Of a DNA stretch of 64,000 nt, positions 32,834 through 37,921 are shown piece by piece. This stretch comes from Rariglobus hedericola (GTDB taxonomy: Bacteria; Verrucomicrobiota; Verrucomicrobiia; Opitutales; Opitutaceae): positions 1,736,001-1,800,000 of the forward strand of contig NZ_VMBG01000001.1 of assembly GCF_007559335.1 (NCBI RefSeq), written 5' to 3'. Numbering within the stretch: position 1 is the stretch's first letter; each line of letters opens with the position of its first letter. Both the position numbers and the translations under genes were made by a program. Below the pieces are notes generated by a model, which saw only the letters and a program-made list of their open reading frames with translations, searched no databases and had not been told where the DNA came from.

Positions 32834-32909
32834 GGCACCGAAACGAGCCGTCAAGCTACGTCCGCCCCCAAGCTTGTAAATGGAAAACTCAAACGTTCCA
32901 CTCGCCCGC

Positions 32910-33665
32910 ATGTCAGACTTTCGCGTTTTCGCACCGGCGCCCGCCCAAGACACCATCTCCCTACCGCCTGCCGAATCGCATCATCTCGTCACCGTCAACC
33001 GTGCCCGCACCGGTGATACGATCATCGCTTTCGACGGTCGCGGCACCGAATGGACGTGTGAACTCACCGATGCCCGCAAATCCGGCGCCACCCTGCGCGT
33101 CACGGCCACACACACCCGCGCGCCCCTGCCCTGCGCCATCACGCTGGCCCAGGCGCTGCCCAAGGGCGGCGTCATGGATGACATTATCCGTCACGCCACG
33201 GAGCTCGGCACCGCGCGCATCGTGCCCCTCTCCACCGAGCGGACCCAGGTTCATCTCGACGGCGACCGCTCAGATAAAAAAATCGAGAAATGGCGCACCA
33301 CCGCGCTTGAAGCCGCCAAACAATGCGGCAACCCGTTCCTGCCGGAGATCACCGGCGTGCAGTCGCTCAACGATTTCCTCGCGGGCGATAGCGTGCGCGG
33401 CGCGGAACTCCGGCTTGTAGCCAGCCTGCACGACGGCGCGAAATCACTAAAACGCGTGCTCGTGGATTTCCGCGACGCACACGAAGGCCGTTCACCGGCC
33501 AATGTCATTTGGTTGGTCGGGCCCGAGGGCGATTTCTCACCTGCAGAAATGGCTGCCATAACTGCCGCGAGCGTTGTGCCCGTCACGCTCGGTCCGCTTG
33601 TGCTTCGGTGCGATACGGCCGCCACCGCCGCCCTCAGCGTGTTGATCCACGAAACGACGGCGTGA
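32910..33665 (+). CDS. rsmE: 16S rRNA m3U1498 methyltransferase RsmE
   Basis: A 251-residue SPOUT-class methyltransferase that methylates U1498 of 16S rRNA. An N-terminal PUA-like domain (FRVFAPAPAQD; ESHHLVTVNRARTGDTI) is followed by the trefoil-knot domain with KGGVMDDIIRHATELG, the cofactor loop WLVGPEGDFS, and LGPLVLRCDTAATAAL. ATG 32910 is preferred, since relatives begin with a short run before RVF; an ATG at 32880 would add ten residues. It starts divergently from tRNA-Leu. A pair of hairpin repeats follows. Confidence 0.93.
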   Translation: MSDFRVFAPAPAQDTISLPPAESHHLVTVNRARTGDTIIAFDGRGTEWTCELTDARKSGATLRVTATHTRAPLPCAITLAQALPKGGVMDDIIRHATELGTARIVPLSTERTQVHLDGDRSDKKIEKWRTTALEAAKQCGNPFLPEITGVQSLNDFLAGDSVRGAELRLVASLHDGAKSLKRVLVDFRDAHEGRSPANVIWLVGPEGDFSPAEMAAITAASVVPVTLGPLVLRCDTAATAALSVLIHETTA

Positions 33666-33763: not shown

Positions 33764-35341
33764 TCACCACACCAGCAAGCCGCCGGCGAATGTCAGACCC
33801 GCACCGACGGAGCAGAAGATAATTTTGTCACCGGCCTTGAAGATACCTTCCTCGGCGGCCCAACCGAGCGCCATCGATACGGACGCGCCCGACGTGTTGC
33901 CGTATTTGGCGATGGTCACGACGAACTTCTCGAAGGGAATTCCCACGCGTTTGCCCACGGCTTTAAGGATGCGTTCGTTGGCCTGGTGAGGCACGATCCA
34001 GGCGATGTCGTCGGGCTTGAGGCCGTGGCGTTGCATAGCCGATTCGATCTCGTTGGCGAAGGCGATGACCGCGCTCTTGAAGACCGCACCGCCATCCATC
34101 TGGAGATAAAAATCATCACGGTCGCTGCCGTCCGCATTCGGGATCGGACGGTTCGCACCGCCGCCCGGACGCTGGATCGCTTCGAAAGCCGACGCATCGC
34201 CGGACAACGCCATGCGGTGCAGGCGATGACCGTCCGGAGCATCCGTCAGGATCGCGGCACCCGCGCCGTCACCAAAGAGAAACGCCGTCTCGTGATCGTT
34301 GGGATTGGTGATGCGCGAGAGCAGTTCGGCGGTGACCACGATCACGTTCTTCGCCGTGCCGCCACGGATGAAGGCGCGACCGACTTCGAGGGCGTAGAGC
34401 CAGCCGGAACAGGCGGCATTGACGTCAAACGCCAGCGCTTTCGTGCAGCCGAGCAAACGCGCGAGCGCGCTGGCCATCGAAGGCACCGGCTGGTCGGGAA
34501 TGATCGTGGCGAGAATGATACCGTCGATCTGCGCGGCGGTCATGCCGGCCTGAGCGAGGGCGTGGTTCACCGCGGTGGCGGCGAGCGAAGTCGCGCTCTC
34601 GTCGGCATCGGCATAGCGGCGCTCATGAATGCCGGTGAGCTTGTGCATCTCGGCCTCGGTGCGACCGGGAAACGCCTTCAAAATCTCGCTCGTGGGACGC
34701 ACGTTTTTTGGCACGGCGTAACCGACACCGGCGATGCAGACGGTCTCGGCTCCCGCAGCGGGGGCGGACGATGAGAGTTGCGAGCTCAGCGTGGAAAGAC
34801 CGGAACCTGCAGCCTTGGGGTTGGCCGCGAGGTAGGCGGTGATGTCGTCGCCGGAAACGCGTCCACCGGGACCCGTGGCGGCGATTCCCGTAAGCGTGGC
34901 GGGATCGAGCCCGGCTTCCTGCGCGAGCTTGGCGGCGCGCGGTGTCCACTGAAGACCGGAAGGAGTGGAGGCCGGCGTGCCGATCTTGGCCACGACCGGA
35001 GCCGGCGCGACCGAGACCGTGGCGGGAGCGGGAGTCAAGGGCTTGGCGACGACGGGCGCGTCATCTTTGACCTGCAGGTTTTTGAGCGAGATATCCGCCG
35101 TGCGGATGCGCAGGAACGGCGAGCCGCTGGGCAGGATGTCGCCAGCTCGGGCCTGCACGATTTCGATGGTGCCATCGCACGGGGCTTCGAACTCGAATAC
35201 CGATTTATCGCTCTCCAATTCGGCGATTTTCTCGCCTTTGGCGATATGCACGCCGGAGACGACCTTGATGTCGATGACTGTGAGTTCGCTGACGGTCGCC
35301 CCCATGGAGGGGATGGCAACGTCGATGAGAAAGGTGTCCAT
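33764..35341 (-). CDS. Fusion of lipoyl domain, E3/E1-binding domain and ketoacyl-ACP synthase III
   Basis: A 525-residue protein with an unusual order of domains. Residues 1-82 form a biotinyl/lipoyl domain with the modification lysine Lys46 (ELESDKSVFEF). Residues 95-130 are a Pro/Ala/Val swinging-arm-type linker. Residues 132-171 match the peripheral subunit-binding domain of 2-oxoacid dehydrogenase E2 (TPRAAKLAQEAGLDP; TGPGGRVSGDDITAYL). Residues 198-525 are a full FabH-type KASIII with Cys311 (NAACSG), His452 (VPHQANERI) and Asn482 (YGNTSGAS). So an E2 arm is joined to a condensing enzyme instead of the acyltransferase. It probably loads an acyl group made by an E1 onto the KASIII cysteine; no E1/E3 gene is in the window. 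The linker at 181-192 is encoded by a CTCAGCTC-type repeat. No strong Shine-Dalgarno precedes the ATG. Confidence 0.9.
   Translation of the reverse strand: MDTFLIDVAIPSMGATVSELTVIDIKVVSGVHIAKGEKIAELESDKSVFEFEAPCDGTIEIVQARAGDILPSGSPFLRIRTADISLKNLQVKDDAPVVAKPLTPAPATVSVAPAPVVAKIGTPASTPSGLQWTPRAAKLAQEAGLDPATLTGIAATGPGGRVSGDDITAYLAANPKAAGSGLSTLSSQLSSSAPAAGAETVCIAGVGYAVPKNVRPTSEILKAFPGRTEAEMHKLTGIHERRYADADESATSLAATAVNHALAQAGMTAAQIDGIILATIIPDQPVPSMASALARLLGCTKALAFDVNAACSGWLYALEVGRAFIRGGTAKNVIVVTAELLSRITNPNDHETAFLFGDGAGAAILTDAPDGHRLHRMALSGDASAFEAIQRPGGGANRPIPNADGSDRDDFYLQMDGGAVFKSAVIAFANEIESAMQRHGLKPDDIAWIVPHQANERILKAVGKRVGIPFEKFVVTIAKYGNTSGASVSMALGWAAEEGIFKAGDKIIFCSVGAGLTFAGGLLVW
34764..34795 (-). 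repeat. CTCAGCTC-type short repeat inside the KASIII fusion gene
   Basis: On the reverse strand it reads CTGAGCTCGCAACTCTCATC and is translated in frame as LSTLSSQLSS, in the linker between the subunit-binding and KASIII domains. Compare 14896-14926 and 41621-41652. Confidence 0.55.
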
Positions 35342-35452: not shown

Positions 35453-36253
35453 TCAGGCAGAACGGGCGAGTTTCCAGAACGCGAGGCACTTCGCGAGCAA
35501 GGCTTCAAGCTCGTCGAGCGGCACCATGTTCGGGCCGTCGGACAGGGCATTATCCGGATCGGGATGCGTTTCGAGAAAAAGGCCGTCGGCACCCGCGGCG
35601 AGCGCGGCGAAGCTGAGCGTGGGCACGAACTCGCGTTGTCCGCCACTCTTGCCACCGCCGGCACCGGGGAGCTGCACGCTGTGCGTCGCGTCGAGGATCA
35701 CGGGGTAACCGTTCTTCGCCATGATCGGGAAGCCGCGCATGTCGACGACGAGGTTGTTGTAACCAAAGGTCGCGCCGCGCTCGCACTGCCAGATTTCGGC
35801 CGCGCCACCGTGCTTCAATTTACCGACCACATGGACCATGTCGTTGGGTGAAAGAAACTGGCCCTTCTTCACGTTGACCGTCTTGCCCGTGGCGGCGGCC
35901 GCAAGGAGGAGATCGGTCTGACGGCAGAGGTAGGCGGGGATCTGCAAGACATCGCATACTTCGGCGACGGGCGCGCACTGCGAAGCGTCATGGACATCGG
36001 TCACGCAAGGCAGCCCGTAGTCTTTTTTGACGAGGGCGTGAAGTGCGAGGCCCTCTTCGAGACCGGTGCCGCGACCGCCGGCGATGGAGGTGCGGTTGGC
36101 TTTGTCGAAGGAGCCTTTGAACACGAGGTTCAGCTCGGGATACTTCGCGCGGATCGAGATCAGTTTCTCGGCCACGGAGCGCACGACCTTCTCGTTTTCC
36201 AGCGAGCAGGGACCGGCGAGGATGAGGAGTTTTTTGGAATCGAAGAGAGGCAT
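35453..36253 (-). CDS. kdsA: 3-deoxy-D-manno-octulosonate 8-phosphate synthase
   Basis: A 266-residue class I DAHP-synthase-like enzyme making KDO-8-phosphate from arabinose-5-phosphate and PEP for LPS core. Markers are [11 protein letters not shown] near the N-terminus, [20 protein letters not shown] and the C-terminal metal/substrate region [32 protein letters not shown]. It confirms an LPS-bearing outer membrane. It lies 24 bases downstream of pyrG in the same direction, the well-known pyrG-kdsA pairing, which ties CTP supply to CMP-KDO formation. Confidence 0.95.
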
Positions 36254-36277: not shown

Positions 36278-37921
36278 TTACTTCTTCTTCGCCTTCACGG
36301 CAGGCTTGGACTTAACGGCTTTCTTACCCGTCTTCTTGTTCTTCAGCGCGGCGCCGATGAACGCGGCGAAGAGCGGATGCGCCTTGTTGGGCTTCGACTG
36401 GAATTCGGGGTGGAACTGGACCGCGAGGAACCACGGGTGGTCTTTGATTTCGACGATCTCGACGAGATTGCGGCGCGGGTTGATGCCGCTGATCACGAGG
36501 CCGCCACGCTGGAGCTGGCCGACGTAGGCGTTGTTCACCTCGAAGCGGTGGCGGTGGCGCTCGCGGATGTTCGGCGCCTTGTAGGCTTTCGCGGCGTTGG
36601 AGCCGGGCGTGAGCGCGCACTCGTAGCTGCCGAGGCGCATGGTCGCGCCTTTATCGATGATCTTCTTCTGCTCCTCCATCATGTTGATGACGGGGTGCGG
36701 TGCGTTGGCATCGAACTCGGTGGAGTTGGCGCCTTTCAACTTGAGGACGTTACGCGCGTATTCGATCACCGCGATCTGCAAGCCAAGGCAGAGACCGTAG
36801 TAAGGCACCTTGTTTTCGCGGGCGTATTTGGCGGCGGCGATTTTGCCTTCGGTGCCGCGGTCGCCGAAGCCACCGGGGACAAGAATACCGTCGAGCCCTT
36901 TGAGAATGGAGAGACCGTTTTTCTTTTCGAGATCCTCTGCGTCGATGCGGACGATGTTAACGCGGGTATTGTTCGCGATGCCGCCGTGCGTGATGGATTC
37001 GTAGACGGACTTGTAGGCGTCCTGGAGCTCGATGTATTTGCCGACGACGCCGATTTTAACCTCGTTGGCGGGGTTCTTCACGCGACGCACGATCTCGGTC
37101 CAGATGTTCTTCTCGGGCGCGGGATTTTTCAGCCCGAAGAGATCGATCACGAGGTCGTCCATGCGCTCCTTCTGGAGGGCGAGAGGGAGTTCGTAGATGG
37201 AATCAACGTCGCCGCACTCGATCACGGCTTTGACCGGGACGTTGCAGAACATGGAAATCTTGTCGCGCAGGCCGGCTTCGAGCGGATGGTCGCAACGGCA
37301 CACCAAGATGTCGGGCTGGATACCAATCTCGCGGAGCTTCGCAACGGATTGCTGCGTGGGCTTGGTCTTCAATTCGCCGGCTGCCTTCAAGTAAGGCACC
37401 AGCGTAACGTGGATAAAAATGCAATCGGTCGGCCCGACTTCGAGGGCGAACTGACGCATCGCTTCGAGGAACGGCAGGCCCTCGATGTCGCCGGTGGTGC
37501 CGCCGATTTCGGTGATGAGGACGTCGACGTCTTTACCGCCGGCGTAGATGCGCTCTTTGATCTCGTTGGTGACGTGTGGGATCACCTGCACGGTCTTGCC
37601 GAGATAAACGCCGCGGCGCTCCTTGGAGATCACGCTCTCATAGACTTGGCCGGAACTGAGCGAGTTGAGCTTGGAGAGCTTGCCGCTGGTGAAACGCTCG
37701 TAGTGGCCGAGGTCGAGGTCGGTTTCCGCACCATCTTCCAACACATAGACTTCGCCATGTTGGAACGGGCTCATCGTGCCCGGATCGACGTTCAGGTAGG
37801 GGTCGAATTTCTGGATGCGCACGGTGAGACCGCGCAGCTCCAAAAGAGCGCCCAGCGCGGCTGCCGTGAGGCCTTTGCCCAACGACGAGACCACTCCGCC
37901 TGTCACGAAGATGTATTTCAT
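36278..37921 (-). CDS. pyrG: CTP synthase
   Basis: A 547-residue amidoligase converting UTP to CTP with glutamine. The synthase domain begins [20 protein letters not shown] with the P-loop; the C-terminal class I glutamine amidotransferase has its nucleophile Cys378 (YGLCLGLQ) and the His/Glu pair near [11 protein letters not shown] basic Lys/Ala tail (about 530-547) extends past the usual end. It heads a unit with kdsA on the reverse strand. The length is typical of the family (about 545). Confidence 0.97.

Follow-up and report, generated by a model that had tools for sequence, protein, structure and literature searches.

An E2-like lipoyl and subunit-binding arm fused to ketoacyl-ACP synthase III in Opitutaceae, a candidate CoA-bypassing entry into branched-chain fatty acids

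In the textbook scheme of fatty acid initiation, acyl-CoA is supplied by a separate dehydrogenase complex, and acyl-CoA and acyl-ACP are the acyl donors known for ketoacyl-ACP synthase III (KASIII). For branched-chain fatty acids, the usual route combines the Bkd complex with FabH, as stated in PMC10026030. Here we describe a gene of Rariglobus hedericola in which an E2-like arm, made of a lipoyl domain and a peripheral subunit-binding domain (PSBD), precedes a KASIII in one polypeptide. The gene lies in the window, by which we mean the whole stretch of 64,000 nucleotides that was analyzed. A sequence-only reading of this DNA had proposed a single 525-residue frame with a lipoyl domain carrying Lys46 in an ESDK motif, a Pro/Ala linker, a PSBD at residues 132-171 and a complete KASIII with Cys311, His452 and Asn482, and had seen the KASIII as swapped in for the E2 acyltransferase. 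Each of these features was recovered. The frame runs on the minus strand from an ATG with no internal stop and no frameshift, a stop being present on the plus strand within 33764-35341, and Biotin_lipoyl, E3_binding and ACP_syn_III all exceeded their cut-offs in the domain search. The gene is composed as follows:

33764..35341, minus strand: fusion gene, 525 aa, lipoyl - Pro/Ala linker - PSBD - linker - KASIII (frame reading and Pfam)
35105..35323, minus strand: lipoyl domain, residues 7-79 (Pfam PF00364 Biotin_lipoyl, 46.3 bits, cut-off 22.1)
35204..35206, minus strand: codon of Lys46, the predicted lipoylation site (ESDK); Lys in 106/106 arms
34958..35089, minus strand: Pro/Ala-rich linker, residues 85-128 (median dN/dS 0.43, against 0.07 in the lipoyl domain)
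34841..34945, minus strand: PSBD (E3_binding), residues 133-167 (Pfam PF02817, 31.7 bits, cut-off 23.7; a whole-genome search matches the same place)
33767..34744, minus strand: KASIII domain, residues 200-525 (Pfam PF08545 and PF08541; NF006829, 314.9 bits)
34409..34411, minus strand: Cys311, nucleophile; Cys in 100/100 rows
33986..33988, minus strand: His452; His in 100/100 rows
33896..33898, minus strand: Asn482; Asn in 100/100 rows

Both Pfam halves of KASIII were matched in the fusion protein, ACP_syn_III (PF08545) at residues 305-379 (87.6 bits, cut-off 24) and ACP_syn_III_C (PF08541) at residues 436-525 (102.8 bits, cut-off 26.6). The NCBIfam model NF006829 (beta-ketoacyl-ACP synthase 3, cut-off 249) moved the start of the domain out to residue 200, and TIGR00747 fabH reached 284.4 bits, slightly below its cut-off of 292.1. 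No PF00198 acyltransferase domain was detected by the Pfam scan of the fusion protein, in which KASIII stands in that place; the genome has two PF00198 matches, both elsewhere. Full-length E2 models fell far under their NCBIfam cut-offs, as expected for a protein without the acyltransferase domain. Lys46, Cys311, His452 and Asn482 were invariant among fused forms in alignments of 14 and 43 rows. The AlphaFold model of the fusion (mean pLDDT 68, pTM 0.46) was of good quality in the lipoyl domain and of fair quality in the PSBD, but weak in KASIII; Foldseek returned FabH entries with rmsd values of 14-21 among the rows listed, and the geometry carries no conclusion.

Purifying selection acts on all three domains and much less on the linkers. 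Median dN/dS, computed over 55 pairs from 11 close relatives, was 0.07 in both the lipoyl domain and KASIII and 0.09 in the PSBD; the two linkers gave 0.43 and 0.82 (from 48 and 39 pairs, respectively, after saturated or too-short pairs were dropped). The lipoyl Lys was kept in every one of 106 arms, comprising 72 fused, 28 split and six others, one of which (L194) stops at a contig end. Biotin in place of lipoate was not favored: the site reads ESDK, the arm matches E2 proteins, and biotin sites differ from lipoyl sites in sequence. The PSBD loop (residues 147-156; window about 34874-34903) is roughly three residues longer than in the PDB E2s compared. By eye, these extra residues are common to the fused, split and mini-only forms, and they may adjust how the PSBD docks to the orphan E1 described below.

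We surveyed 387 genomes of the phylum, 36 of them Opitutaceae-like Verrucomicrobiota (family f1) and 351 outside this family. An arm together with KASIII was found in 20 of the 36 f1 genomes, with best E-values of 2e-165 or better; the best value among the 351 other genomes was 1e-72, and among the matches listed, those outside f1 were at most 43% identical and covered mainly the KASIII part. The 20 genomes, all in f1, comprise 15 with one fused frame and five (G158, G348, G280, G096 and G010) with a two-gene form, in which a lipoyl-PSBD gene lies directly upstream of KASIII. No lipoyl match was detected near 10 KASIII loci outside f1 (L029-L038; about 4 kb of DNA each, from the 351 sampled genomes). 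Because the architecture recurs in this way, the fusion is not an assembly accident; a chance or assembly fusion was rejected on this ground, on the purifying selection on the domains and on the single clade of fused rows described next. One fused genome, G286, carries two copies (L057 and L059); the branch leading to the second is very long (1.18), and this copy may have acquired a new function.

A scan of genome contigs yielded 254 loci, and the best 80 of these were used, all of which were Opitutae by name or were placed among Opitutaceae on the tree. Four Opitutaceae-type fusions (L099, L086, L087 and L092) carry Candidatus Sumerlaeota or Akkermansia muciniphila labels, and these records look like mislabelled or contaminated MAGs. 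The closest record was a Rariglobus MAG at 87% identity, in a scan that may omit the host genome and its near relatives. A viral scan gave two loci, matching the KASIII part only. Pooling the 80 loci with the 20 of the phylum sample gave 100 loci, some from the same genome, of which 72 were fused frames and 28 were not; each of the 28 had a lipoyl-PSBD frame immediately upstream in the same orientation. The 91 distinct KASIII sequences comprised 66 fused and 25 split forms, with L137, first labelled split, counted as fused, as it is a fused gene with one in-frame stop. The fused rows together with L137 formed one clade (support 100/99) with the split rows outside it, on a tree whose root is unsure and whose branch to the FabH outgroup is long. 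A single fusion event is thus the simplest account. The arm also occurs by itself: at five loci (L185-L189) a mini-E2 of about 150-160 aa from its likely start has no adjacent KASIII, and where the flanks are long enough, it adjoins the same neighbors (PyrG-like, KdsA-like or RsmE-like, by eye).

In the window, the three nearest neighbors of the fusion gene belong to housekeeping families:

35453..36253, minus strand: DAHP_synth_1 family (KdsA-like), upstream neighbor, outside the module
36278..37921, minus strand: CTP synthase (PyrG-like), outside the module
32880..33665, plus strand: RNA methyltransferase (RsmE-like), convergent neighbor, outside the module

A secondary-metabolite cluster was rejected on the basis of these neighbors, and the earlier suggestion of a polyketide-like product finds no support in them.

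We then compared 100 KASIII rows of the module (91 distinct) with 23 FabH-type sequences, namely 12 from family f1, the host genome's own and 10 from other members of the phylum. When Yersinia FabH is superposed on CoA-bound E. coli FabH, Trp32 and Arg151 flank the stacked adenine and the phosphopantetheine is held by Arg36, according to PMC4606726. The titles of PDB entries for mycobacterial FabH mutants (W42A,R161A; R46A,R161A) suggest that the presumably equivalent places have been probed there. The corresponding positions in the window are:

34649..34651, minus strand: Glu231, at the place of E. coli FabH Trp32 (CoA adenine stacking); E 95, A 2, D 1, Q 1, gap 1, W 0 (n=100)
34637..34639, minus strand: Leu235, at the place of E. 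coli FabH Arg36; L 92, V 5, T 1, I 1, gap 1, R 0 (n=100)
34292..34294, minus strand: His350, at the place of E. coli FabH Arg151; H 92, N 2, K 2, Q 2, P 1, F 1, R 0 (n=100)
34076..34078, minus strand: Lys422, at the place of E. coli FabH Lys214; K 96, R 4 (n=100)
33971..33973, minus strand: Arg457, at the place of E. coli FabH Arg249; R 100/100

The Trp/Arg/Arg set of the CoA site was present in 23/23 FabH sequences and in none of the 100 module rows (one row having a gap at each of the first two columns). The module KASIII retained the Cys-His-Asn triad and the Lys/Arg positions of Lys214 and Arg249, which we take to be ACP-docking residues. Among 17 more distant KASIII paralogs, Trp32 and Arg36 were each found in 0/17, Arg151 in 7/17 and each ACP-docking residue in 0/17. 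Since these paralogs also lack Trp32 and Arg36, loss of the CoA site alone is no proof of a non-CoA donor; as they have lost both sites, it is the loss of the CoA site with retention of the ACP site that marks the module among the three sets compared. The module KASIII was 35.6% identical to the FabH of the host genome, and the idea that it serves as the sole housekeeping FabH was rejected, as the genome has another FabH beside a PlsX-like gene (by eye).

The sequence-only reading had pointed to E1 and E3 genes elsewhere in the genome as relevant. The host genome encodes three E1s, namely a PDH E1 alpha, an OGDH E1 and a 678-aa protein with alpha and beta halves in one chain (E1ab); two further weak PF00676 matches look by eye like transketolase and DXS. 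Its two PF00198 E2s belong to PDH and OGDH, and an Lpd-like gene adjoins the OGDH E2. With three E1s to two E2s, E1ab is, on gene content, an orphan E1 lacking a catalytic E2 of its own in the host genome.

C1:1712129-1714162: E1ab (P0002), 678 aa, alpha and beta in one chain

Orthologs of E1ab (at least 56% identity) were present in 34 of the 36 f1 genomes among the 387 surveyed, and in every one of the 20 that carry arm and KASIII; those of G096 and G327 were matched as two pieces. Outside f1, the match with the best E-value shared 38% identity over most of the protein, and the beta half by itself was matched at up to 48%. In a set of 150 f1 genomes, 100 had E1ab, arm and KASIII, 31 had E1 and arm, eight had none, six had E1 only, four had arm and KASIII, and one had E1 and KASIII. 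E1ab and arm were thus both present in 131 genomes and both absent in eight (Fisher p 5e-7, the counts being genomes and not independent events). Restricting the set to the 120 genomes with completeness of 90% or more and contamination of 5% or less left 110 with both, two with E1 only, one with arm only and seven with neither (p 5e-9). The seven double negatives span four genera (g201, g202, g3 and g5) and other members of g5 keep both genes, which suggests joint loss of E1ab and arm more than once. The four genomes with arm and KASIII and no E1ab are G406, G456, G467 and G480, of which only G480 is more than 90% complete; these four and the six with E1 only weigh against the mechanism considered below.

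The distance between E1ab and the fusion was 11-19 kb in all seven sampled g15/g17 genomes, a proximity that favors the mechanism; in G220 it was measured through the joined ends of one contig presumed to be circular. E1ab lay 23 kb from the arm in G411 and 57 kb from the fusion in the host genome; in most other genomes it was far from the fusion or on another contig, a separation that counts against the mechanism considered below.

These findings bear on the proposal of the sequence-only reading that an acyl group could pass from lipoamide to KASIII, bypassing CoA. The proposal gains support from the loss of CoA-site residues with retention of ACP-docking residues, from the co-occurrence of the orphan E1 and from the adjacency of the parts in split forms. 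On the other side, the 31 of 150 genomes with E1ab and arm and no module KASIII detected speak against the mechanism, some of them possibly reflecting contig breaks (as in G403). The mini-E2 at L185-L189, with no KASIII alongside, indicates that the arm can serve another acceptor. In genomes without the module KASIII this is perhaps the E2cat of a one-chain protein (see below) or another KASIII. The seven genomes examined that have the arm and lack the module KASIII carry a FabH and more distant KASIII paralogs, which does not explain the acceptor.

Our favored reading, which we regard as probable, is that the module is an E2 whose CoA acyltransferase core has been replaced by a condensing enzyme: E1 would acylate the arm and KASIII would condense the acyl group with malonyl-ACP, bypassing CoA and probably leading to iso/anteiso fatty acids. 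With slightly less assurance, we lean towards a channelling complex in which E1, lipoyl arm and condensing enzyme act as one unit, so that branched chains are primed by acyl-lipoamide and acyl-CoA does not arise as an intermediate. The cycle would run as follows, with the lipoylation, the docking, the direct transfer and the identity of substrate and product all being predictions. The PSBD would dock E1 and E3, and the orphan E1ab would decarboxylate a 2-oxoacid, probably a branched-chain one, and reductively acylate the lipoyl arm. The arm would swing to the KASIII of the same chain, where Cys311 would accept the acyl group from acyl-dihydrolipoamide and His452 and Asn482 would drive decarboxylative condensation with malonyl-ACP to 3-oxoacyl-ACP. 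E3, presumably the Lpd-like protein encoded beside the OGDH E2, would reoxidize the arm. In sum, 2-oxoacid, malonyl-ACP and NAD+ would give a branched 3-oxoacyl-ACP without free acyl-CoA, and from it iso/anteiso fatty acids.

The alternative that survives best, though we consider it unlikely, is that the arm does no more than hold KASIII next to PDH or another 2-oxoacid dehydrogenase complex, and that KASIII uses the acyl-CoA which this complex makes nearby in the usual manner. PDH and OGDH complexes with normal E2s are present in the genome, and a PSBD could dock their E1 or E3. However, a KASIII using acyl-CoA is at odds with the absence of the CoA-site residues from all 100 rows, a pure tether would not need the lipoyl Lys that all 106 arms keep, and the arm co-occurs with an E1 that has no E2 of its own in the host genome. 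Somewhat less likely still is a transacylase role, in which KASIII would stand in for the E2 and pass the acyl group from lipoamide to ACP (or CoA), giving acyl-ACP with no condensation. KASIII enzymes do show acyl transfer as a side activity, and the ACP-docking positions are retained, but the His and Asn required for decarboxylative condensation are conserved as His452 and Asn482 in 100/100 rows, which speaks against this reading.

As for the substrate of that condensing module, the two halves of E1ab point in different directions. In PDB searches, the alpha half matched human branched-chain E1 alpha best (1e-25), followed by a Thermus 2-oxoacid E1 (6e-24) and PDH E1 alpha (1e-21 or weaker), and matched P. 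putida branched-chain E1 alpha weakly (4e-10), the organisms of these matches being named, on our assumption, from entry codes. The beta half was closest to PDH E1 beta (1e-66, versus 2e-57 for the P. putida branched-chain protein). Iso/anteiso acids occur also in other Opitutales outside Opitutaceae, the family to which we take Horticoccus and Oleiharenicola to belong. In PMC5303756, iso-C15:0 makes up 33% and 49% in two Lacunisphaera species (Opitutaceae) and 9% in a third, alongside iso-C14:0 and anteiso-C15:0. Likewise, PMC12193912 gives iso or anteiso acids among the major ones of Horticoccus, Rariglobus, Oleiharenicola and Nibricoccus. The link between the module and iso/anteiso fatty acids in Opitutaceae is suggestive only. 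The least likely alternative, a pyruvate module giving a CoA-free acetyl starter for straight-chain rather than branched acids, draws on the PDH-like beta half and the weak P. putida alpha match, but is opposed by the human branched-chain E1 alpha as best alpha match, by the PDH gene set and the FabH beside the PlsX-like gene, which already cover the acetyl route, by PDH and OGDH being the other two of the three E1s found, and by the prominence of branched acids in cultured relatives.

Opitutaceae without the module KASIII offer a further comparison. A one-chain E1-lipoyl-E2cat protein, counted as E1 and E2 matches in one long frame, was found in 9/16 genomes without the module KASIII, some of these being incomplete assemblies, versus 2/44 with it (p 3e-5). 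Three examples of this E1alpha-E1beta-lipoyl-E2cat protein of about 1050 aa are:

L236 4806-8036
L237 4272-7409
L238 3985-7170

A Pfam scan of L236 found no PSBD in its one-chain protein. The distribution looks as if the one-chain protein and the fusion route were interchangeable, the former being able in principle to make acyl-CoA.

We also observed that the PDH E1a-E1b-E2 genes of the host genome are directly followed by a second odd KASIII-like gene of 323 aa (L039 9637-15495; C1 about 1361.6-1367.5 kb), in which, by eye, VPNG replaces the usual VPHQ. Beside it lie, again by eye, a reductase-like gene, a small ACP-like gene, two small diiron-like genes and a methyltransferase-like gene, and the genes after the PDH set perhaps form a small biosynthetic cluster.

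The sequence-only reading had not been aware of a described enzyme with this order. Our literature search, with most subscription journals outside it, found no published description of lipoyl-PSBD-KASIII order, and the claim stands within that range. Each part is of a known kind; we know of no report of their combination or of the loss of the CoA site. If direct transfer is shown, the module would represent a new way to start a fatty acid. Acyl-lipoamide would then be a third kind of acyl donor for KASIII, with lipoamide feeding chain initiation directly, and the breakdown of branched-chain amino acids would be joined to membrane lipids outside the CoA pool. Such a mechanism would also indicate how a bacterial family is likely to make its branched-chain fatty acids and provide a ready-made part for engineered branched lipids. 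Mini-E2 alone, mini-E2 with KASIII and the fusion form a natural series for the evolution of channelling.

Set beside known systems, the fusion shares with the E2 of PDH, BCKDH and OGDH an N-terminal lipoyl domain, a Pro/Ala linker and a PSBD in the same order, but it has KASIII instead of the PF00198 core and a PSBD loop three residues longer than in PDB E2s. The PDH E3-binding protein (protein X) resembles the mini-E2 in having lipoyl domain and PSBD with no working acyltransferase; unlike the mini-E2, which has no core, it keeps an E2-like core domain. With FabH, the fusion has in common a full KASIII domain, the Cys-His-Asn triad and the ACP-docking Lys/Arg, whereas its Trp/Arg/Arg positions are mostly Glu/Leu/His and an E2 arm is fused or adjacent. 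As in the Bkd and FabH route, decarboxylation of a 2-oxoacid would give the starter and a KASIII would begin the chain; there, free acyl-CoA joins two separate enzymes, whereas here the proposed acceptor lies in the chain of the arm itself or in the next gene.
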